Under the pieces are notes generated by a model, which was not told the origin of the DNA, did not search any database, and was given only the letters and a program-made list of their open reading frames with translations. The position numbers and the translations under genes are program-made. Of a stretch of 64,000 bases of DNA, positions 6,509 to 63,242 are shown piece by piece. Source of the DNA: Limimaricola soesokkakensis (lineage in GTDB: Bacteria > Pseudomonadota > Alphaproteobacteria > Rhodobacterales > Rhodobacteraceae); assembly GCF_900172345.1 (NCBI RefSeq), contig NZ_FWFY01000001.1, positions 62,001 through 126,000 on the forward strand, in the 5' to 3' direction. Each line of letters opens with the position of its first letter. The first letter of the stretch is position 1.

Positions 6509-7216
6509 TCACGCTTGCGTGATCGCTCCCGCATCGAGCCAGGCGGGAAGAGCGCCGATATCGTCGAACACCAGATCCGCATGCGGGGCCAGCGCGTCGC
6601 GCGGCGCCAGCCCGGTCAGGACCGCCACCGCCACCATCCCGGCGGCGCGGGCGGCCTGCAGATCGTGCAGGCTGTCGCCGATCATCGCGCAGGTGCCGGG
6701 CGCCGCGCCCAGCGCCTCGGCGCAGGCGAGCAGCTGGCCGGGGCCCGGTTTGAAACCGAAGCCGCTATCGGCCCCGGCGACGAAGCCGAACGTCGCGGCC
6801 AGGCCGGCGGCGCAGATATGCGCACGGGCGGGCGCCTCGGAATCATTGGTCACCAGTCCCAGCGCCACGCCGCGCGCCGCCAGTTCGGCGAAGAGCGGCG
6901 CGAGCGGCACCGCCGGGACCTGCGGTGCCTCCGCAGCCCTCGCGTTCATCCGCGCGATCAGGGCCTGTCGGTCGCAGCCCAGAAGATGCGGCAGCATCGC
7001 ATCGGCGATCTCGGCGGTGGTCGAGGCGATGACGATGCTGTCGGGTGCAAAGCGCCCGGTCTCGAGGTCATAGCCCAGCGCCGCAGCGATCGCCGCCATT
7101 CGGACCGGGTCGCCCTCGGCCTCGGCCTCGATCAGCCCGCGCGACCAGCCGCCCCAAGTGGCATGGAAGTCGAACAGCGTGCCGTCCTTGTCGAAGATCA
7201 GCGCGGTGGGGTTCAT
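6509..7216 (-). CDS. HAD-family hydrolase, phosphoglycolate-phosphatase-like
   Basis: A 235-residue haloacid-dehalogenase-superfamily phosphatase. All four HAD motifs are visible: FDKDGTL (catalytic Asp pair), VTND, a lysine in FGFKPGPGQ, and MIGDSLHDL. The cap between motifs I and II is the alpha-helical type used by phosphoglycolate phosphatases (Gph), so removal of 2-phosphoglycolate or a similar small phosphate ester is plausible, not proven. Its start overlaps the stop of the DUF3572 gene by four bases (ATGA), giving a coupled two-gene operon. Confidence 0.88.
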   Translation of the reverse strand: MNPTALIFDKDGTLFDFHATWGGWSRGLIEAEAEGDPVRMAAIAAALGYDLETGRFAPDSIVIASTTAEIADAMLPHLLGCDRQALIARMNARAAEAPQVPAVPLAPLFAELAARGVALGLVTNDSEAPARAHICAAGLAATFGFVAGADSGFGFKPGPGQLLACAEALGAAPGTCAMIGDSLHDLQAARAAGMVAVAVLTGLAPRDALAPHADLVFDDIGALPAWLDAGAITQA

Positions 7217-7491
7217 GTCCAGTTCATCCGCGACGGCCCCGCCAGCACCAGCATGGCGGTATGCGGCTCGTCATAGTCATACCCGGCGCCGTCGCAGAAG
7301 CTCGTGACCCAGGCGTCGTCCATGGTCAGGAACTCCAGCACCGAGGCCTGAAAGGAGGGTTCGGCCGCACGGTTGCGCAGATCCTCCGCCGCGGCACCGG
7401 TCGAGCCGAGAAAGACCGGCCACAACTCGTCATTGGCCGCGAGCCAGCCCAGCGCTCCCAACGCGATCACCTCGGCACGTTCCCGCTTCAT
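7213..7491 (-). CDS. DUF3572 protein
   Basis: A 92-residue small acidic protein of the alphaproteobacterial DUF3572 family, function unknown. It has a helical first half (ALGALGWLAANDELW) and a conserved-looking FLTMDDAWVTSFC segment. In many alphaproteobacteria this family is encoded beside pleD, as here (divergent, across about 90 bases), so an association with the cell-cycle/c-di-GMP locus is traditional but unexplained. The intergenic sequence includes an AT-rich stretch around 7520-7542 that could hold both promoters, although I cannot assign boxes. Confidence 0.8.
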   Translation of the reverse strand: MKRERAEVIALGALGWLAANDELWPVFLGSTGAAAEDLRNRAAEPSFQASVLEFLTMDDAWVTSFCDGAGYDYDEPHTAMLVLAGPSRMNWT

Positions 7492-7585
7492 GGTTTTCCT
7501 CCGAAGGTATTGGCAGGGTTTTGTTAACTAATATTCCCGACCCTGTGACCGGGAGCGGGCGAAGGGCCCGAACAAGGACATGCTC

Positions 7586-8971
7586 ATGTCGGGTCGTATC
7601 CTGATCGTCGATGGAATCGCAACGCAAAGGGGCGCGCATGACGCGCTTCTCGCGGCTGCGGGCTTCGAGTGCCTGCATTGCCGGGATGCGGGGGCGGCGC
7701 TCGCCCGGCTTCCTGATCCCGGCATCGACCTGCTGTTTCTGCCGCTGGACGATGTCGCCGATCCCGCTGCGGCCAGTGGCTTGCTCGAGCGGCTCCGCGC
7801 CGGCCCGGCGACGGCGCGCCTGCCCGTGGTCGTGACCGGGCGCTGGCCCGATCCGGCGTGCAGGTTGGCGCTGCTGCGCGCGGGCGCCGACGAGGTGGCC
7901 GAGGCGCCGATGCAGGTGGCGCTGCTGCAGGCCCGGATCCGCAACCTGATGCGCGCCCGCGATACCGAGGGCGAACTATCGCGCCGGGCCGCCACCCATC
8001 AGGCGCTGGGCTTTTGCGAGGCCGCGGCGGGGTTCACGCCCCGCCAGAAGGTCGCCGTCATCACGCCCCGGGCCGAGATTGGAACGGCCGCGCGCCTTGG
8101 CCTGAGGGGGCCGGCGCGCCGCATCGCACCGCAACAGAGCTTTGCGGCGGAGGCAGGACAGGAGGATCTTTACGTGATCGATGGCGCGGCCTTGCGCGCC
8201 GAAGGGCAGCCGTCGCGCGAGCTGTTTCGCATCGTCGCGGAGCTGCGCAGCCGATCGGCTACCCGCCGCGCCGCGCAACTCGTGATGCTGCCGGAGCCGG
8301 GGCGCGAGGCGGCCATGCTGCTCGATCTGGGGGCGGATGATGTCGTGCCGGCCGGGGTGCTGCCCGAGGAGATCGCGTTCCGGGCCGCGCGCCTGCTGGC
8401 CCGGAAGGCGTTGGCCGACCGGCTGCGCGCGACGGAGCGGCAGGGGTTGGAGGCCGCGCTGACGGACGAGCTGACGGGGCTGTGGAACCGGCGTTATGCG
8501 CTGCCGCATCTGGCGCGGCTGATCGACGAGGCACGGAAGCGGCGGCGACCCATCGCGGTGATGCTGCTCGACATCGATCATTTCAAGATGGTGAACGACC
8601 GCCATGGTCATGCGGCGGGGGACAGGGTGCTGGCGCAGGTCGCCCGGCGCCTGCGCGACGGGCTGCGGCCCGCCGACCTGCTGGCGCGGATCGGCGGAGA
8701 GGAGTTCCTCGTGGCGATGCCCGAGACCAGCCTCGAACAGGCCCGCGGCGCCGCCGAGCGGCTGTGCCTGAAAATCCGCAACCAGCCCTTCGTCCTGTCC
8801 GGAGAGGGGTTGCCTTGCGAGGTCACCGTTTCGGTGGGCGTGGCGACGGGGCCGTGCCACAGCGCCCCGGCGACAGAGGCCGAAACGCTGATGCGCCACG
8901 CCGATGCGGCGCTCTACGCGGCCAAGCAGACCGGGCGAAACCGCGTCACGGTTAGCCCGAGCGCGGCCTAG
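7586..8971 (+). CDS. PleD-like diguanylate cyclase with degenerate receivers
   Basis: A 461-residue protein: receiver-like domain (about 4-122), a second degenerate receiver-like domain (about 155-275) and a GGDEF domain (about 290-458). The cyclase half looks active: GGEEF at 370-374, DIDHFKMVND in the metal/substrate strand, and an RPAD I-site exactly five residues before GGEEF for product inhibition. Receiver 1 is not a normal phospho-acceptor. The acidic pair of PleD is D9-G10 here, the phosphorylated Asp position is Leu52, and the conserved Lys before Pro108 is Ala. ATG 7586 is preferred over 7580 because AAGGA sits eight bases upstream. It converges on znuA, with overlapping stops. Confidence 0.85.
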   Translation: MSGRILIVDGIATQRGAHDALLAAAGFECLHCRDAGAALARLPDPGIDLLFLPLDDVADPAAASGLLERLRAGPATARLPVVVTGRWPDPACRLALLRAGADEVAEAPMQVALLQARIRNLMRARDTEGELSRRAATHQALGFCEAAAGFTPRQKVAVITPRAEIGTAARLGLRGPARRIAPQQSFAAEAGQEDLYVIDGAALRAEGQPSRELFRIVAELRSRSATRRAAQLVMLPEPGREAAMLLDLGADDVVPAGVLPEEIAFRAARLLARKALADRLRATERQGLEAALTDELTGLWNRRYALPHLARLIDEARKRRRPIAVMLLDIDHFKMVNDRHGHAAGDRVLAQVARRLRDGLRPADLLARIGGEEFLVAMPETSLEQARGAAERLCLKIRNQPFVLSGEGLPCEVTVSVGVATGPCHSAPATEAETLMRHADAALYAAKQTGRNRVTVSPSAA

Positions 8972-48869: not shown

Positions 48870-50801
48870 CTAGCCGCGATCCTTGCTGCGATAGCCCACC
48901 GCACTGACGCCTTCGAGCGGCTCGGTTTCGGTGGCATCGCCCTGCGGGTGCAGCCGCTCGAGGATCGATGTCTCGAGATCCTTGTTCAGCTCGCGCGCGC
49001 GCTTCACGTATTCGGGGTTCTGCGACACCGGCACGCCGGGTTTCCACAGCTGTGCCAGCTCGCGGACCACGGCGCGGTCCTGCTGGTAGAAGGCCATCTC
49101 CAGTTCCGAGGCCTCGAACTGCGACAGGCCGATATTCTCGAGCACGTAGCGCCCGGCCCGCAGGCTCGAATCGAACATCTCGCGGACGATGTCGTTCGCC
49201 CCGGCCTGGAACAGCTGGTAGACATGCTCGCGGTCATAGGCGCGCGCCACGATGTGCAGGTCGGGCCGCATCGCACGGGCATGACGCACCAGCTTGAGCG
49301 CGGCGTGGCGGTCGTCGAGCGCCACCACCAGCACCTTGGCGGTCTCCAGCCCCGCGGCATGCAGGATGTCGGGCCGGGTCGGATCGCCAAAGAAACCGCC
49401 GAAGCCGAAACGGCGCATCGTGTCGATCATCTCCATGTCGTGGTCGAGCACCACCGTGTCGAAGCCCGCGCCCTGCACCAGACGGCTCACCACCTGGCCG
49501 AAGCGGCCGATCCCGGCGATGATGATCGGCGCCTGCCGGTCGATTTCGTCGGGATCTGGGTCTGGGGCCTTTTCGGCGCGCTTGACCAGCTGCTCGTAGA
49601 GGATGAACAGCAGCGGCGTGATCAGCATCGACAGCCCGATCACCAGCCGGATGACACTGGCCTCGCTGGAGGTGAGTACGCCCTGTTGCAGCGAGAAGGA
49701 GGACAGCACGAAGCCGAACTCGCCTGCCTGCGCCAGCGCCAGCGTGAACAGCCAGCCGTCGCGGGTGTGCATCTGCGCGATCCGGGCCAGCAGGTAGAGC
49801 ACCCCGCCCTTGATCGCGATCACCGCGAGCGTCAGCGCCGCGATCCGCATCGGGTTGTCCAGCAGAACGCCGAAATCGATGCCGGCGCCGACGGTGATGA
49901 AGAACAGCCCCAGGAGCAGCCCCTTGAAGGGTTCGAGATCGCTTTCGAGCTCGTGCCGGAACTCGGAGTTGGCGAGCACCACACCGGCGAGAAAGGTACC
50001 CAGCGCGGGCGACAGGCCAACCAGCTCCATCAGGACCGCGATGGAGACCACCATCAGCAGGCCCAGCGCGGTGTAGAGCTCGCGCAGGCGCGCGTGGTGG
50101 ATGTAGCGGAACACCGGCCGCGTCAGGTAGATGCCGGTCAGCACCACCACCGCCACCGCGCCCAGCGTCACCAGCGTCACCGCCCAGCCCGGCAGGTTCT
50201 CGATCAGCGTGCGTGCGGCCTCGACCTCCTTGACGCCCGGCGCGTCGGGGTTCGCCGGCGCCCCGTGCGCGCTGCCGCCGCCATGCCCCGACACCGCGAG
50301 CAGCGGCAGCAGCGCCAGCATCGGGATCACCGCGATGTCCTGCGTCAGCAGCACCGAGAAGACGGAGCGTCCGCCTTGTGCCTGCATCAACCCCTTTTCG
50401 GACAGCGTCTGCAGCACGATGGCGGTGGAGGAGAGCGCGAAGATAAGCCCGGTGGCCAGCGCCACGTTGGCGTCGAGCCCGAGCAGGCTGCCCGCGATGA
50501 ACAGGGCGCCGGTGGTCAGCACGACCTGCACGCCGCCCAGACCGATCAACCGCTGTCTCATGTTCCACAGCGCCCGCGGCTCCAGCTCCAGCCCGATCAG
50601 GAACAGCATCATCACCACGCCGAACTCGGCGAAATGCTGAAGATCCTCGGTTTCCGCACCGACCAGTCCCGTGGCCGGGCCGATGATGATGCCGGCGGCG
50701 AGATAGCCCAGCACTGAGCCGAGGCCGAGACGCGCTGCGAGCGGTACGGCCAGCACCGCTGCACCGAGATAGATCGTGGCTTGAAAGAGAAATCCCTGCA
50801 T
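48870..50801 (-). CDS. kefB: Kef-type K+/H+ antiporter (CPA2 family)
   Basis: A 643-residue protein: a CPA2 exchanger domain with 11-13 hydrophobic helices (about 1-400, with GVVMMLFLIGLELEP, LALAQAGEFGFVLSS and the LSPALGTFLAGVVLANS motif), then a TrkA-N (RCK) nucleotide-binding domain (about 425-545; IIAGIGRFGQVVSRL and a later Asp of the dinucleotide fold), and a charged tail. Such proteins release K+ under electrophile stress, gated by glutathione adducts in KefB/KefC. Which subtype it is cannot be settled by eye; glutathione genes lie elsewhere in this window but are not linked. Confidence 0.88.
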   Translation of the reverse strand: MQGFLFQATIYLGAAVLAVPLAARLGLGSVLGYLAAGIIIGPATGLVGAETEDLQHFAEFGVVMMLFLIGLELEPRALWNMRQRLIGLGGVQVVLTTGALFIAGSLLGLDANVALATGLIFALSSTAIVLQTLSEKGLMQAQGGRSVFSVLLTQDIAVIPMLALLPLLAVSGHGGGSAHGAPANPDAPGVKEVEAARTLIENLPGWAVTLVTLGAVAVVVLTGIYLTRPVFRYIHHARLRELYTALGLLMVVSIAVLMELVGLSPALGTFLAGVVLANSEFRHELESDLEPFKGLLLGLFFITVGAGIDFGVLLDNPMRIAALTLAVIAIKGGVLYLLARIAQMHTRDGWLFTLALAQAGEFGFVLSSFSLQQGVLTSSEASVIRLVIGLSMLITPLLFILYEQLVKRAEKAPDPDPDEIDRQAPIIIAGIGRFGQVVSRLVQGAGFDTVVLDHDMEMIDTMRRFGFGGFFGDPTRPDILHAAGLETAKVLVVALDDRHAALKLVRHARAMRPDLHIVARAYDREHVYQLFQAGANDIVREMFDSSLRAGRYVLENIGLSQFEASELEMAFYQQDRAVVRELAQLWKPGVPVSQNPEYVKRARELNKDLETSILERLHPQGDATETEPLEGVSAVGYRSKDRG

Positions 50802-50872: not shown

Positions 50873-53794
50873 TCAGTCGGGGATCTTGAGGACCATGGTG
50901 CGGCCGCGCCGGACATAGTTCAGAACGTCGTCGCCGATCGCCGTGACCTTGCCGCCATCGAGGGCGTCTCCGACGCCGACGCGCAGGTAGCGGCCATTCT
51001 CCATGCGGATCAGAGCCCGTCGCGCGCCCGGCTTGCCGTAGACGCCGATGAGATTGATGTCGCGCAGGTTGATGGCATTGTCGCGGGTAGCGGCGCGGGC
51101 GACGCTGCCGGGCACCGGCCCATCCGGAGCGACGGTCGCGTTGGCGACCTGCTGCGGCGCGCTGGCGGTGGTCGAGGCGGCCGCTGCGGGAGCGCGGCTG
51201 CGGCTCTGGGCCACCACGCGGTCGAAGTTGCGCGGCCGAGAATCCGGGCGGCGCGCGGTGGGAACCGCCTGCGGCGTCGCGTTGGCCAGCGGGTCGGGCG
51301 CATCGGCCATCAGCGAGGCCAGCGCGTCGGCGACCGACGCGCGCGCCGGCGGGGAAGGCGTCTCGCCCACGGCCTCGGCCAAAGCGGCTGCCTGGGCGTC
51401 GGTGGCCTCGGTGACCTGGCTTTCGGCATCGGGGGCCAACCCTTCCGGACGAAGCGGCGGACGCGGCCCCTCATAGGCCGCAAGCGGCGGTAGCACCGCA
51501 TCTTCGGGGCGTCTCGTGGGGCGCAGCGCGTCGAGCGCGACTCCGCCGGGCGTCACCCCGGCGGCCTCTGCCTCGTCGGTCTCCAAAGCCTTCGTGCCGG
51601 GCCGGGTCGGCGGCACCACGGGCGGCGCGCCGGGAATCAGCTCCACCCCCTCCGGTCTGGCCGCGGGGGTGGTAGCCGGATCGACGAGCGCGGCGCTGTC
51701 GTCCTCACTCGCCTCGGCTTTGGACGCTTCGCTCTCATCGGCAGGTGTAGCGGCGGGCGGAGCGACCGTGCCGGGCCGGGTCGGCGGCAGGACCTCGGGT
51801 CGTCCCTCGTAGACCACGAGGCCTTGCGGCGTCACCGTTCCCTCGGCGGTGGCGGCGATGAAGCCGCGCGCGTCGCGCTCGAAGACGCTGCCGGCCGGCG
51901 GCGGCACGGCCTGTACCGGCAGCCCACCATCCGGTGCGACGGCGGCGAGACGCAGACCGTCCATGCCGAATTCCGCGACCGCTTCGCTCGTCACCGCGAC
52001 CGGCATGCCGAGCTGCTCCGCGCGTGGCGTCAGGGGCAGGCGGGGCGCCCGCAGCCAGACGCCGGTGGCCGCATAGACGCGTTCGGCCTCGGCCGGGCTC
52101 ACCGCCGCTGCAGGACCGCGATCGGGCGCCGGGTAGTCGTCGTAGTCGGGCACCGGTTCCGGCGCGGGCTGCTCTGGCACCGCGACAGCGGCTTCGGGCT
52201 CCTGCGTGCCCGAAGGCGCTGCTTCGGGTTCGTCGGGCGTGAGCGCTGCGAGATCGGCGCTCGTGTCGCGCAATAGCCCCGCCTGCGGATCATCTTCGGC
52301 GGCGCTCAGCCAGAACCCGAACAGAAGGACCAGAAGCGCGGTGACGATGGCGCCTGCGATCAGGGCGAGGCGGCCCGGCCGCTTGTCGGGCGTCGCGCGG
52401 CGCGCGCCGAACACGGTCATGCGCTCGCGTTCGCTGGCCAGATCGACGCTGCGGCGGCTGCCAGATTCGGCCCGGGGCGCGGTAGCCGGTCGGGGTGCCT
52501 CGGCGGAGGCCTCGGGCGCGACTAACGAGGCGCCGGCGGCAAGGGCGGCGGCTTCGGCGTTCTCCCCGGTTTCTTGGCTTTCACCAGGCGTCGCGGGCGG
52601 CATGGCGGGCATGGCGGCTGGAGGCGCGCCGGGCCGCGGCATCGCCGGCGGCATGATCCGGCGCGCGGCATCGGTGCTTTCATCTGTGCGTGGCGGGGGG
52701 GCCTTGTCGCGGGCGGCGTCACCGCGTGGCGGCAGTGGCGGCGCGGCTGGGGGAGCAGCTGGGCGGGGCGGCTCGCGATGCGCGGGCTCTGCCAGCATGG
52801 CCTCGTCATCGTCGATGCCGCTCTGGTCAGGCATCGGCAGGTCCGGCATCACCGGAGCCCCGGCCTGTGGCAGCGGCTCCGCCGGCCGGGGCGCGGTGGT
52901 GTCCGGGGCAGGGGCCAGCAGCGCCTCGTCCTCGTCTTCCAGATCAGCGGCCGGCGTGACCGGGGCGGGCGAGGTCTGGTCGCGGTCCCGCGATACGCCC
53001 TCGTTCGGCGCCTCAGGCTGCGTGTCCAAGGGTTCAGACCGCGGTGCGGGCATCTCGTCACCCGCCTCGATCTCCGGGGCCGGGGTATCGATCGCAGCCA
53101 TCTCCTCTTCCGACGCATCGGCCTCGGGGCCGGTCCCGACCTCGACGGCATCGGTCGGGGGCTGCGCGGGTATGGGTGCGGGGGGGAGGTCATCCTCGCC
53201 GATCGGCGGTTCCGCGTCGAAGGACGCGTCCGTCACGGCAGAATCCATATCGGTGATTTCCAACGGATCGCCTTGAGCCTCGGACGGCAGTTCGTGCACC
53301 ACGACCTCGTCGCGTGTCACCGTCTCCTTCAGGCCCTCCACCGGACCGAACAGCACCTCGCCCGGGAAACCATCCGACTCCGGCACCGCGGCGAAGGCCA
53401 CCGGCTCCAGCGCGTGCTCCCGCGCAAAGCCTTCGGCCTCTTCCAGCGTCTCGCGCGCTACTGCCGCGACATGGGTGCGCCCGTCCTCGACCACGTAATC
53501 GATGGCTAGTTCGTCCACGGCATAGGGGGTCGTCCCCTCCAGTGCCTTTGCCACCTCGTCGGCACCGAGCACGCCCTCGAGCACGAGGTAGCGGATCTGG
53601 TCGTTGGGAATCAGCAGCTTGGTGCGCAGCCCTTCCGGCGCGCGGGCGAGCGCGGCCGCCCGCAGCCGCGCCAGATCGCCCGCGAGATCCGCGCTGTCGA
53701 GCGGCACCTCGCCGATCCGGGTCCAGCCCGCGGGCGCGCGGTGCAGCAGTCTCAGGCCCTCGAGCGAGAGCGACAGGGCGAAATTGGGTGTCAT
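50873..53794 (-). CDS. Large GspL/PilM-N, GspC/PilP-C-like single-pass protein
   Basis: A 973-residue protein not assigned to a named family. Residues about 1-150 look like the first part of a GspL/PilM actin-like domain: LSLEGLRLLHRA, LLIPNDQIRYLVLE, a YAVDELAIDYVVEDG strand pair, then an ala-rich helix. About 150-470 is an acidic Pro/Ala linker. One transmembrane helix lies at about 474-496 (IAGAIVTALLVLLFGFW). About 500-890 is again Pro/Ala-rich, with repeated PPTRPGT units. The last ~75 residues (INLIGVYGKPGARRALIRM, then GRYLRVGVGDALDGGKV) resemble the GspC/PilP homology region. Topology would be cytoplasmic head, periplasmic tail. No other secretion or pilus gene is nearby. ATG 53794 follows AAGG at eight bases. 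Confidence 0.75.
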   Translation of the reverse strand: MTPNFALSLSLEGLRLLHRAPAGWTRIGEVPLDSADLAGDLARLRAAALARAPEGLRTKLLIPNDQIRYLVLEGVLGADEVAKALEGTTPYAVDELAIDYVVEDGRTHVAAVARETLEEAEGFAREHALEPVAFAAVPESDGFPGEVLFGPVEGLKETVTRDEVVVHELPSEAQGDPLEITDMDSAVTDASFDAEPPIGEDDLPPAPIPAQPPTDAVEVGTGPEADASEEEMAAIDTPAPEIEAGDEMPAPRSEPLDTQPEAPNEGVSRDRDQTSPAPVTPAADLEDEDEALLAPAPDTTAPRPAEPLPQAGAPVMPDLPMPDQSGIDDDEAMLAEPAHREPPRPAAPPAAPPLPPRGDAARDKAPPPRTDESTDAARRIMPPAMPRPGAPPAAMPAMPPATPGESQETGENAEAAALAAGASLVAPEASAEAPRPATAPRAESGSRRSVDLASERERMTVFGARRATPDKRPGRLALIAGAIVTALLVLLFGFWLSAAEDDPQAGLLRDTSADLAALTPDEPEAAPSGTQEPEAAVAVPEQPAPEPVPDYDDYPAPDRGPAAAVSPAEAERVYAATGVWLRAPRLPLTPRAEQLGMPVAVTSEAVAEFGMDGLRLAAVAPDGGLPVQAVPPPAGSVFERDARGFIAATAEGTVTPQGLVVYEGRPEVLPPTRPGTVAPPAATPADESEASKAEASEDDSAALVDPATTPAARPEGVELIPGAPPVVPPTRPGTKALETDEAEAAGVTPGGVALDALRPTRRPEDAVLPPLAAYEGPRPPLRPEGLAPDAESQVTEATDAQAAALAEAVGETPSPPARASVADALASLMADAPDPLANATPQAVPTARRPDSRPRNFDRVVAQSRSRAPAAAASTTASAPQQVANATVAPDGPVPGSVARAATRDNAINLRDINLIGVYGKPGARRALIRMENGRYLRVGVGDALDGGKVTAIGDDVLNYVRRGRTMVLKIPD

Positions 53795-53964
53795 GTGGCA
53801 GGCCTTAGCATCACTGGCAGGGTCCGGGAACGGGCGTGCCAGACCGGCAGCATTTTGCAAGCAGCTTTCCGCGCGCGCAACCCGCCCCCCGGAGGTTGTG
53901 ATCGCACCGCTCTTGCAAGGCGGCGCCCCGGGGCGTTCGATGCCGCCAGATTCAGGAGGATACC

Positions 53965-54669
53965 ATGAAGCAAGCCACGCTTTCCGCCCTCGCGCTCGCT
54001 ATCGGCCTGGCCACGGCTGCCGACGCGCAACCGGTCGAGGTCCCGGCGACGCCGCCCCGTTCCGTGACCGTCACCGGCGAGGGCCATGTCCGCGCCGCCC
54101 CGGAAATGGCCCGGGTGCGGCTCGGGGTCAGCGAGACCGCCGAAACCGCCCGCGCTGCGCTCGACGCGATGAACGCCGCCATGGGGCGGGTGCTCGACCG
54201 GCTGAGCGAGGCCGGAATCGCGCCCGAGAACGTCCAGACCGGCCAGCTCAGTCTTGATCGAGACTATGCGCGGATGCGCGACGGGCAATCGGAGCCCGAG
54301 GGTTTCGTCGCCACGACGCTGGTGGAGTTGCGGGTCACAGATCTCGATTCGCTCGGCACCGTGCTCGACGCCGCGGTGGGCGAGGGGGCGAACCGGCTCG
54401 AGGGGATCGAGTTCATGCTGGCCGACCGGGCTGCGGCGCATGATGACGCGCGCCGCGCTGCCGTGGTCGACGCTCAGGCCCGTGCACGGCTCTATGCCGA
54501 GGCCGCCGGGGTCGAGCTGGGCGAGGTCCTGTCGCTCTCCGAAACGCGGGCCGATTTCGGGCCGCGACCGATGATGGAGATGCGCATGGCCGCCGATGGG
54601 GGCGTGCCGATCGCCCAAGGCGAGGTCGAGGTCTCGGCCGGAGTCAGCATGGTCTACGCGATCGACTGA
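53965..54669 (+). CDS. SIMPL-domain (DUF541) periplasmic protein
   Basis: A 234-residue exported protein with signal peptide (about 1-21, ADA-QP) and one SIMPL/DUF541 domain (about 32-232): SVTVTGEGHVRAAPEMARVRLGV-type opening, GIAPENVQTGQLSLD, and a C-terminal VEVSAGVSMVYAID strand. Related E. coli YggE is linked to oxidative-stress tolerance; the mechanism is unknown. It converges on the DUF421 gene with five bases between stops. Confidence 0.92.
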   Translation: MKQATLSALALAIGLATAADAQPVEVPATPPRSVTVTGEGHVRAAPEMARVRLGVSETAETARAALDAMNAAMGRVLDRLSEAGIAPENVQTGQLSLDRDYARMRDGQSEPEGFVATTLVELRVTDLDSLGTVLDAAVGEGANRLEGIEFMLADRAAAHDDARRAAVVDAQARARLYAEAAGVELGEVLSLSETRADFGPRPMMEMRMAADGGVPIAQGEVEVSAGVSMVYAID

Positions 54670-56307: not shown

Positions 56308-56391
56308 TGGTGGGCGACCCTGGAATCGAACCAGGCGTGGGTCTCCCCGGCGGAGTTACAGTCCGCTGCCGCACCTTGCAGCTCGTCGCCC
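56308..56391 (-). tRNA. tRNA-Tyr: tRNA-Tyr (GTA)
   Basis: On the reverse strand a full class II cloverleaf folds: acceptor GGGCGAC/GTCGCCC, D-stem GCTGC/GCAGC, anticodon stem GCGGA/TCCGC with loop CTGTAAC (anticodon GTA), a long variable arm with GGG/CCC, and T-arm CCTGG-TTCGATT-CCAGG. The discriminator A and the CCA end are encoded. The long variable arm is expected for bacterial tRNA-Tyr. Confidence 0.97.
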
Positions 56392-62707: not shown

Positions 62708-62822
62708 GGGAGGATCGAAACTGGAGCGGGTGATGAGATTCGAACTCACGACCCTTACCTTGGCAAGGTAATGCTCTACCCCTGAGCTACACCCGCTTCC
62801 GTTTCGTGGGGCGGATGTAGCC
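62708..62822. repeat. Duplicated 115-bp tRNA-Gly block, copy 1
   Basis: Identical, base for base, to 63128-63242. It covers 14 bases after the tRNA 3' end, the whole tRNA gene, and 26 bases upstream including the -10 element. Outside the block the copies still resemble each other (gggtgcaag then purine-rich sequence) but diverge. Confidence 0.95.
62722..62796 (-). tRNA. tRNA-Gly: tRNA-Gly (GCC), copy 1
   Basis: A complete cloverleaf on the reverse strand: acceptor GCGGGTG/CACCCGC, D-arm GCTCAGGGGTAGAGC, anticodon stem TTACC/GGTAA with loop TTGCCAA (anticodon GCC), T-loop TTCGAAT, discriminator T and an encoded CCA. 75 bases. Identical to copy 2 at 63142-63216. Confidence 0.98.
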
Positions 62823-63127: not shown

Positions 63128-63242
63128 GGGAGGATCGAAACTGGAGCGGGTGATGAGATTCGAACTCACGACCCTTACCTTGGCAAGGTAATGCTCTACC
63201 CCTGAGCTACACCCGCTTCCGTTTCGTGGGGCGGATGTAGCC
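63128..63242. repeat. Duplicated 115-bp tRNA-Gly block, copy 2
   Basis: Exact repeat of 62708-62822 in the same orientation, 420 bases away. Confidence 0.95.
63142..63216 (-). tRNA. tRNA-Gly: tRNA-Gly (GCC), copy 2
   Basis: Identical in every base to the tRNA-Gly at 62722-62796, with the same GCC anticodon and encoded CCA. Confidence 0.98.

Follow-up and report, generated by a model that had tools for sequence, protein, structure and literature searches.

An orphan Rhodobacteraceae protein joining a GspL/PilM-like head to a GspC/PilP-like tail: a candidate trans-envelope tether

The window analysed here is a 64,000-nucleotide stretch of the 3.9 Mb genome of Limimaricola soesokkakensis (G000; positions 62001-126000 of contig 23, C23:62001-126000), a member of the Rhodobacteraceae, a large group of marine and soil bacteria. 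It carries a gene for a 973-residue protein in which a predicted cytoplasmic head resembling GspL of the type II secretion system (T2SS) and PilM of the type IVa pilus is joined, through a transmembrane (TM) helix and long linkers, to a predicted C-terminal domain resembling PilP and the homology region (HR) of GspC. By sequence comparison, the fusion is real and conserved throughout the family, also in genomes where we detected neither a secretin, nor a secretion ATPase, nor a GspF-type protein. We propose, with a probability of about 0.58, that the protein is an orphan inner-membrane trans-envelope tether built of type IV filament platform parts and working without that machine. The tethering itself we infer from the anatomy of the protein.

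The open reading frame (ORF), at 50873-53794, had been picked out by a sequence-only reading, whose coordinates and length proved right. It lies on the minus strand, encodes 973 residues plus a stop from the ATG at 53794, and is conserved in relatives. An upstream TTG at 53860 is an alternative start that would yield 995 residues; we take the ATG to be the family start because M1 is invariant in all 39 aligned heads. A plus-strand reading of the same interval was rejected owing to in-frame stops, and a chance long ORF in GC-rich DNA was rejected because head and tail are conserved across genomes.

We found a relative of the last 86 residues in 291 of the 292 genomes of the order that were searched (112/112 genera), all of which carry one family label (Rhodobacteraceae-type), and a relative of the first 155 residues in 288 of them (110/112 genera). 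In 38 of 40 hand-picked loci, each fetched from a different genome, head and tail are encoded in one ORF of 744-1515 codons; in the other two (L085 and L116, left out of the 39-row alignments) they lie in different frames. Four deep relatives (G110, G141, G227 and G272), whose heads escaped the single-sequence search, have a diverged head inside the tail's ORF, with profile E-values of 4e-11 to 4e-9 within the loci; the genome-wide profile search recovered G272 alone, and the heads of the other three were seen only by scanning the tail ORF with the HMMER filters off. In G054, head and tail occupy two ORFs. The tail was missed in G185, where the head lies within 1.7 kb of a contig start and the remainder therefore probably runs off the contig. 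When the head profile was run over 289 genomes of the class, it matched five genomes of the family and 2 of the 284 others; the two outside matches (E ~1e-5) are GspL-like genes by reading and have T2SS-like neighbours. A collection of named genomes contained at least 510 stretches with confirmed relatives, of which we kept 80; going by their titles, these are from Rhodobacteraceae genera or bins. The closest named relative of the head among the matches listed comes from Limimaricola sp. G21655-S1 (98% identity).

The 39-protein alignment contains four conserved blocks: residues 1-155, a short block at ~455-470 directly before the membrane, residues 556-676, and residues 841-973. Between them the chain is Ala/Pro-rich and poorly conserved. 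The single central TM helix and the acidic linkers of the sequence-only reading are both present: the window protein has one strong hydrophobic segment, and its linkers are Ala/Pro-rich with net charges of -40 on the cytoplasmic and -30 on the periplasmic side. Hydropathy gives one strong TM segment in each of the 39 chains; additional windows appear in seven of them, either overlapping (L092, L118, L121, L122) or weak and elsewhere (L087, L114, L115), and we read these chains too as having one TM helix. Both linkers are acidic on average and vary in length, from 155 to 536 residues (median 318) on the cytoplasmic side and from 328 to 748 (median 394) on the periplasmic side. L258 and L260, the deepest relatives read, have by eye just ~20 residues of cytoplasmic linker but a periplasmic linker that is still long, so that a long periplasmic reach is the constant feature. 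The middle block (alignment A4, built on 29 of the 39 rows after removal of ten that align poorly here) has a mean column identity of 48% and a pattern resembling FxxDxRGxVxATPEGTxTPDGxxVFAGxP; it matched no PDB sequence, and its Pfam matches were single-member and at chance level.

Scans of the whole protein returned little. The single Pfam match was PilP, below cut-off (E 0.052, residues 864-956), with neither PF05134 nor any GspL/PilN-type periplasmic domain matched. Among NCBIfam models, TIGR03021 (pilP_fam) matched at E 2.1e-5 and one unrelated enzyme at chance level; against its equivalog cut-off of 34.65 bits, TIGR03021 scored 25.5 with the whole protein and 29.1 with the isolated tail.

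AlphaFold2 modelled the head from a 39-row alignment with a mean pLDDT (per-residue confidence) of 95.7 and a pTM (whole-fold confidence) of 0.90. When the model was compared with the PDB by Foldseek, the nine best matches (E 9e-8 to 5e-5) were without exception PilM or cytoplasmic domains of GspL, followed by an actin-like protein and then FtsA. One of the nine comes from the pilus-machine model 3jc8, whose chain letters we take to denote PilM and PilP. VIA-align gave Z 10.9 to Vibrio cholerae EpsL/GspL (142 residues, root-mean-square deviation (rmsd) 3.4) and Z 10.2 to PilM. These comparisons agree with the proposal that the first ~150 residues resemble GspL/PilM, and extend it to residues 1-155. 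Profile comparisons point the same way. The head profile (A1) aligned by hhalign with a three-row alignment of GspL-like proteins (A3), the window genome's own among them, with a probability of 96 and an E-value of 4.7e-9 across 94 columns, a score that is flattered because two of the three A3 rows were themselves found with the head profile. The Pfam family T2SSL (PF05134) was matched weakly by 7 of the 39 heads (best E 0.02) and PilM_2 by two; searched against PDB sequences, the head profile gave only chance-looking matches, the best being a designed repeat protein (E 0.012).

The last ~63 residues of the tail were modelled with a pLDDT of 81-95 per ten-residue block. The five best Foldseek matches, all to PilP, GspC or GspB, have probabilities of 0.99-1.00 and E-values between 1.3e-3 and 5.9e-2; no match reaches E 0.001. 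By VIA-align the tail model superposes on the GspC HR domain (3oss_C) with Z 10.2 and an rmsd of 1.5 over 60 residues, and on PilP with Z 9.0-9.4. The eleven top rows of that comparison are GspC, PilP, GspB or Dot/Icm chains; an unrelated fold comes next, with Z down from 6.6 to 4.6. The absence of any family from the list carries no weight as evidence. One of the eleven, a chain of a PilQ entry, is presumably PilP. At E up to 1, TIGR03021 was matched by all 39 tails, GspC_delta by 23 and the type III family SctD by 20, and a search of PDB sequences with the tail profile placed PilP and GspC among the top matches at E of only 0.39-0.63. The predicted identities of both domains are thus supported by structure prediction and structure search, and by weaker but consistent profile matches. 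The sequence-only reading had suggested comparing the two ends with these folds; each end resembles the family proposed for it, the last ~63 of the ~75 C-terminal residues in the case of the tail, and neither outcome that it had named as refuting was encountered, be it an end without such similarity or homologues lacking either domain that would make the domains incidental. The sequence features it had cited, PPTRPGT repeats, GVYGKPGARRALIRM and VGVGDALDGGKV, are all present.

Some other Rhodobacteraceae carry a second, tail-only copy encoding a protein of ~80-120 residues in which we saw no signal peptide or TM helix by eye. Eight genomes had been chosen for having more than one tail match, and the small ORF was recovered in seven, the relocation script having missed L077. 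In the three loci with listed neighbours (L075, L076 and L078), it adjoins an SDR-surE group by eye. An HR-like domain in the cytosol would be odd. A single-sequence search gave no second tail match in the window genome.

The periplasmic linker carries a repeated motif. Across the 39 periplasmic linkers, RP with a second RP four residues on (RP..RP) occurs 91 times, whereas shuffling the linkers gives an expectation of 1.1; 37 of the 39 chains contain it. PxxRP occurs 171 times versus 19 expected; RP pairs at a spacing of five do not occur. Cytoplasmic linkers contain no RP..RP (1.5 expected), nor do the other 50 gene-like ORFs of the window. The usual copies read RPxxRPxxLA or PPxRPGT; in the window protein, PxxRP is found at six periplasmic sites and once more beside the TM helix. 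Confinement of the motif to one side of the membrane helix speaks for the proposed topology, and it suggests that the RPxxRP array may be a multivalent docking site.

We next consider whether the protein belongs to a secretion or pilus machine. The sequence-only reading held that the fusion merges two platform roles of the T2SS or type IV pilus, and that no secretin or ATPase gene is near. The latter is correct: the window genome encodes two secretins, two T2SSE ATPases and four matches to PF00482 (GspF/TadB/TadC), all of which map outside the window, either to contig 18 or to C23:286-292 kb, and a scan of 12 neighbouring ORFs in the window matched no pilus or secretion family and no pil gene, pilins not being searched for. 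That reading had advised a search of the genome for orphan copies; the two secretins and two ATPases found lie within a T2SS-like and a Tad-like cluster. By Pfam, the T2SS-like cluster on contig 18 encodes GspE, GspF and a secretin with a GspD-type N0 domain (PF21305); by reading, it also encodes pseudopilins and GspL-like, GspM-like and GspC-like proteins. Its GspL-like protein has a sub-threshold PilN match and could be aligned with the head profile, and its GspC-like protein, named by reading the sequence, reaches only E 0.059 with the tail profile. The Tad-like cluster on contig 23 holds the second secretin, the second T2SSE ATPase and two GspF-family matches. The fused protein is unlikely to replace an absent GspL or GspC in the cell's own T2SS, since the contig 18 cluster appears to carry both. 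By eye, that cluster (G000:C18:397000-428000; loci L154 and L159) adjoins a gene for an 812-residue protein with a Tat-like start and another for a cytochrome-oxidase-assembly-like protein, which together could be a secreted substrate group.

Across the order, PF00482 is present in 270 of 292 genomes and absent from 22. Among the 149 genomes covered by searches for the other two families, 145 contain a secretin (PF00263) and 144 a T2SSE ATPase (PF00437). We named and counted 20 of the 22 PF00482-negative genomes, which fall into five genera, most of them in g7; the head is kept in 20/20 and the tail in 19/20. Three of these genomes, G022, G055 and G139, match none of the three families and encode the whole gene in one ORF; a fourth, G054, likewise has no PF00263 match. 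By single-sequence search, the head of G055 scores E 4.1e-49, between its PF00482-containing genus mates G132 (1.9e-52) and G190 (6.8e-42), that of G139 scores 3.9e-46, and that of G022 scores 1.1e-22, on par with the rest of genus g7. We quote single-sequence scores here as the alignments A1 and A2 contain the G055 (L097) and G139 (L106) proteins, whose profile scores hold by construction. These values give no sign of relaxed selection on the head in G055 and G139, as far as sequence similarity can tell. Because the gene is kept in G022, G055 and G139, a platform role cannot be the sole reason for its retention, and because the gene does not follow the machines, its product cannot simply be counted as a platform component of a T2SS, a pilus or a Tad system. 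Independence from filament machines is our best-supported negative result. The claim of merged platform roles therefore survives in part: the fusion and both domains stand, and the platform role is weakened by the separate cluster and by persistence without a machine. The other half of that interpretation, that the protein may be the scaffold of an unknown envelope machine, survives.

Comparison with known systems locates the novelty in the combination of parts. The fused protein shares with GspL the head fold, detectable profile similarity and the order head, linker, single TM helix; it differs in its conserved head, which stops at ~155 residues versus 224-238 in GspL structures, in matching no GspL/PilN-type periplasmic domain, in lying apart from the genome's T2SS-like cluster, and in its presence even where no T2SS family was found. 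With GspC it shares a single TM helix, a long flexible periplasmic linker and a C-terminal HR domain, but its TM helix comes after ~475 residues that include a folded head, where the genome's own GspC-like protein has a short stretch, and it has RPxxRP repeats and occurs in some hosts without a detected secretin. The PilM/PilP pair is alike in both folds, but consists of two chains, and the head is under half the length of PilM (351-355 residues in PDB chains); nor is the fused protein a PilP-type lipoprotein, because its tail ends a single-pass protein whose N-terminus is a folded head. HR-like periplasmic domains among the tail matches also include GspB (4wfw) and a Dot/Icm chain of 7muc, presumably DotF; we know of no GspL-like head in either protein. 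Natural PilO-PilP fusions, as mentioned in passing in PMC3169554, likewise join two platform proteins with the PilP domain last, but there the partner is PilO (GspM-like), within a pilus system, whereas here it is a PilM/GspL head in an orphan gene. In the literature we found neither a GspL/PilM-head plus GspC/PilP-tail fusion nor the present family among open-licence works. The gene is not named in excerpts of the R. sphaeroides Tn-seq (PMC5513736) and CenKR (PMC9275681) papers, and it could not be mapped to the table of 29 Rhodobacterales-specific proteins of Gupta and Mok 2007 (PMC2241609, in excerpt). The modules are thus known; new to us are their combination, its near-universal distribution and its independence from a machine.

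The anatomy suggests how such a tether might work. The fused protein resembles a GspC in which a GspL head takes the place of the short cytoplasmic end. In the T2SS, GspL uses its cytoplasmic domain to contact the N1E domain of the ATPase in a 1:1 complex, and the flexible linker of PulC spans the periplasm, letting the HR domain clip onto the secretin N0 domain (PMC6882859, in excerpt); the GspC-GspD interface has also been described (PMC3169554, in excerpt). By analogy, the head would dock a cytosolic partner as the GspL head docks the GspE ATPase, the linker would cross the periplasm as that of PulC does, and the HR tail would clip onto an outer-membrane or periplasmic partner as that of GspC does onto the secretin. 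With the RPxxRP repeats, the linker could offer several weak sites at which a second periplasmic partner, or the wall, might dock. The protein may then link a cytosolic or inner-membrane component with the outer envelope, serving growth, division or integrity and not protein or pilus export.

Several points weigh against this proposal. With PF00482 in 270 of the 292 genomes, the protein may still have a role with Tad or the T2SS where these are present, and PF00482-negative genomes can keep other machine parts: G006 and G081 have a secretin match, G054 an ATPase match and G092 both. The secretin and ATPase test covered 7 of the 20 named PF00482-negative genomes, and profile searches could overlook very divergent machine parts. 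A search for partners with the STN domain (PF07660) found none in 10 genomes, a weak test because the model misses the genome's own GspD, whose N0 domain is PF21305, a family not searched genome-wide. The RP counts come from 39 related chains that are not independent, and shuffling leaves their shared ancestry in. The placement of the tail outside the membrane is a prediction from homology and from the asymmetry of the motif. We identified no partner on either side of the membrane, and found no report on mutants, localisation or expression.

A more specific form of the proposal is tentative, and we would not give it even odds: the gene could belong to a Rhodobacteraceae core envelope system that reuses platform modules without filament, ATPase motor or secretin, in which the RPxxRP repeats bind a dedicated periplasmic receptor multivalently, providing a family-specific coupling of inner to outer membrane, possibly in growth or division. 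One candidate for that receptor is the product of the SIMPL-domain gene (PF04402) that lies divergently upstream. By tblastn, 30 of the 40 loci have a SIMPL match, divergent in every case, whose beginning and the start of the head are 157-307 bases apart. An earlier search with different settings gave 29/40 and a stricter script based on ORFs and hidden Markov models 24/40, an undercount partly because over-extended ORFs fell beyond its distance rule; applied to the 80 named loci, the same script recorded 40 with the neighbour, 26 without, 13 lacking a listed head ORF and one lacking room. The SIMPL gene is also adjacent in the six PF00482-negative genomes first examined, five by script (L262-L266) and G139 at L106. 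The linkage is common, not universal. SIMPL is the sole neighbour with a plausible envelope link and a possible partner, though adjacency is not proof of joint function.

Four other explanations were weighed. The first, that the protein is an accessory platform component whose head binds the TadA/GspE ATPase and whose tail binds the RcpA/GspD secretin, we regard as rather unlikely. Head and tail are the very domains that do so in the T2SS (PMC6882859, in excerpt), all three machine families are present in most of the genomes searched for them, and G006, G054, G081 and G092 retain a secretin or ATPase match despite lacking PF00482; this reading is countered by retention of the head in all 20 named PF00482-negative genomes and of the whole gene in the three genomes without any of the families, by the GspL-like and GspC-like genes already in the T2SS-like cluster, and by the lack of pilus or secretion families among the 12 neighbouring ORFs scanned. 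Unlikely, too, is that a former part of an ancestral T2SS-like machine has become an envelope-stress sensor or regulator, its tail sensing the periplasm and its head signalling through a cytosolic binding partner. A protein that spans the membrane once and has folded domains on both sides of it would suit such a role, as would the short intergenic region shared with the divergent SIMPL envelope gene in 30 of 40 loci, but Pfam matched no DNA-binding, kinase or other output domain, and SIMPL was not found alongside in the remaining 10 loci.

That the two resemblances merely reflect generic small-domain folds, uninformative as to origin, is very improbable. The window protein's own matches are weak (Pfam PilP E 0.052), the tail never reaches E 0.001 in Foldseek, and PDB sequence profile searches are unconvincing for the head and reach only E 0.39-0.63 for the tail; against this, the nine best head matches and the five best tail matches all belong to the expected families, the tail's VIA Z goes down from 6.6 to 4.6 where unrelated folds begin, TIGR03021 and GspC_delta are matched by 39 and 23 of the 39 tails at E up to 1, and the head profile recovers GspL-like genes adjoining T2SS-like genes. 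Finally, that gene calling or assembly joined separate genes is scarcely credible: head and tail lie in different ORFs in 2 of 40 loci and in G054, but form one uninterrupted ORF in the other 38, from different genomes, and in the deep relatives G110, G141, G227 and G272.

The coordinates of the gene, its parts and its neighbours are collected in Table 1. Downstream, the cobalamin gene cobT is found in 27 of the 40 loci. The neighbours scanned in the window are SIMPL, antiporter, cobalamin, protease, ribosomal RNA methylase, his and hydrolase genes, or gave no match. Some loci have further genes separating the fusion from the antiporter; by eye these encode an HPPD-like protein and an Lrp-like regulator, and they were set aside as unrelated. 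Elsewhere in the window, ARAGORN reports a tRNA-Tyr at 56308-56391 that is unlisted by Rfam at the gathering threshold, which lists both members of a tRNA-Gly(gcc) pair at 62722-62796 and 63142-63216, ~345 bases apart on the same strand.

Table 1. Positions of the fused gene, its predicted parts and related or neighbouring genes (window coordinates unless a locus is named)
Feature	Position	Strand	Remarks
Fused gene	50873..53794	-	973 residues plus stop; start backed by 39/39 aligned relatives
Predicted cytoplasmic head, GspL/PilM-like half-actin fold	53330..53794	-	residues 1-155; AlphaFold2, Foldseek, VIA, hhalign
Variable acidic Ala/Pro-rich cytoplasmic linker	52385..53329	-	residues ~156-470
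Predicted TM helix	52313..52369	-	residues ~476-494; hydropathy
Conserved periplasmic block, no PDB sequence match	51767..52129	-	residues 556-676; alignment A4
Periplasmic linker with PxxRP / RPxxRP	51218..51787	-	residues ~670-859
Predicted GspC-HR/PilP-like tail domain	50876..51064	-	residues 911-973; AlphaFold2, VIA, TIGR03021
SIMPL-domain (PF04402) gene, divergent	53965..54669	+	Pfam E 8.7e-53; conserved neighbour, possible partner
CPA2-type cation/proton antiporter gene, downstream	48870..50801	-	PF00999, PF02254; 28/40 loci; probably unrelated
Stand-alone small tail ORFs	L076:7548-7808; L075:7585-8022; L078, L079, L080, L081, L082 ~7000-8200		

Returning to the proposed tether, we note that the gene occurs, near-always in single copy, in virtually all of the Rhodobacteraceae-type genomes examined. 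This points to a core role in the envelope, and since the gene is kept even where the machines seem to be missing, its product probably has an unrecognised job there. The RPxxRP array offers a concrete handle for finding the partner of the protein. More generally, these data indicate that secretion and pilus platform domains can be fused and retained without the machine that defines them; a PilP-, GspC- or GspL-like match in these bacteria should therefore not be taken as evidence of a pilus or a T2SS.

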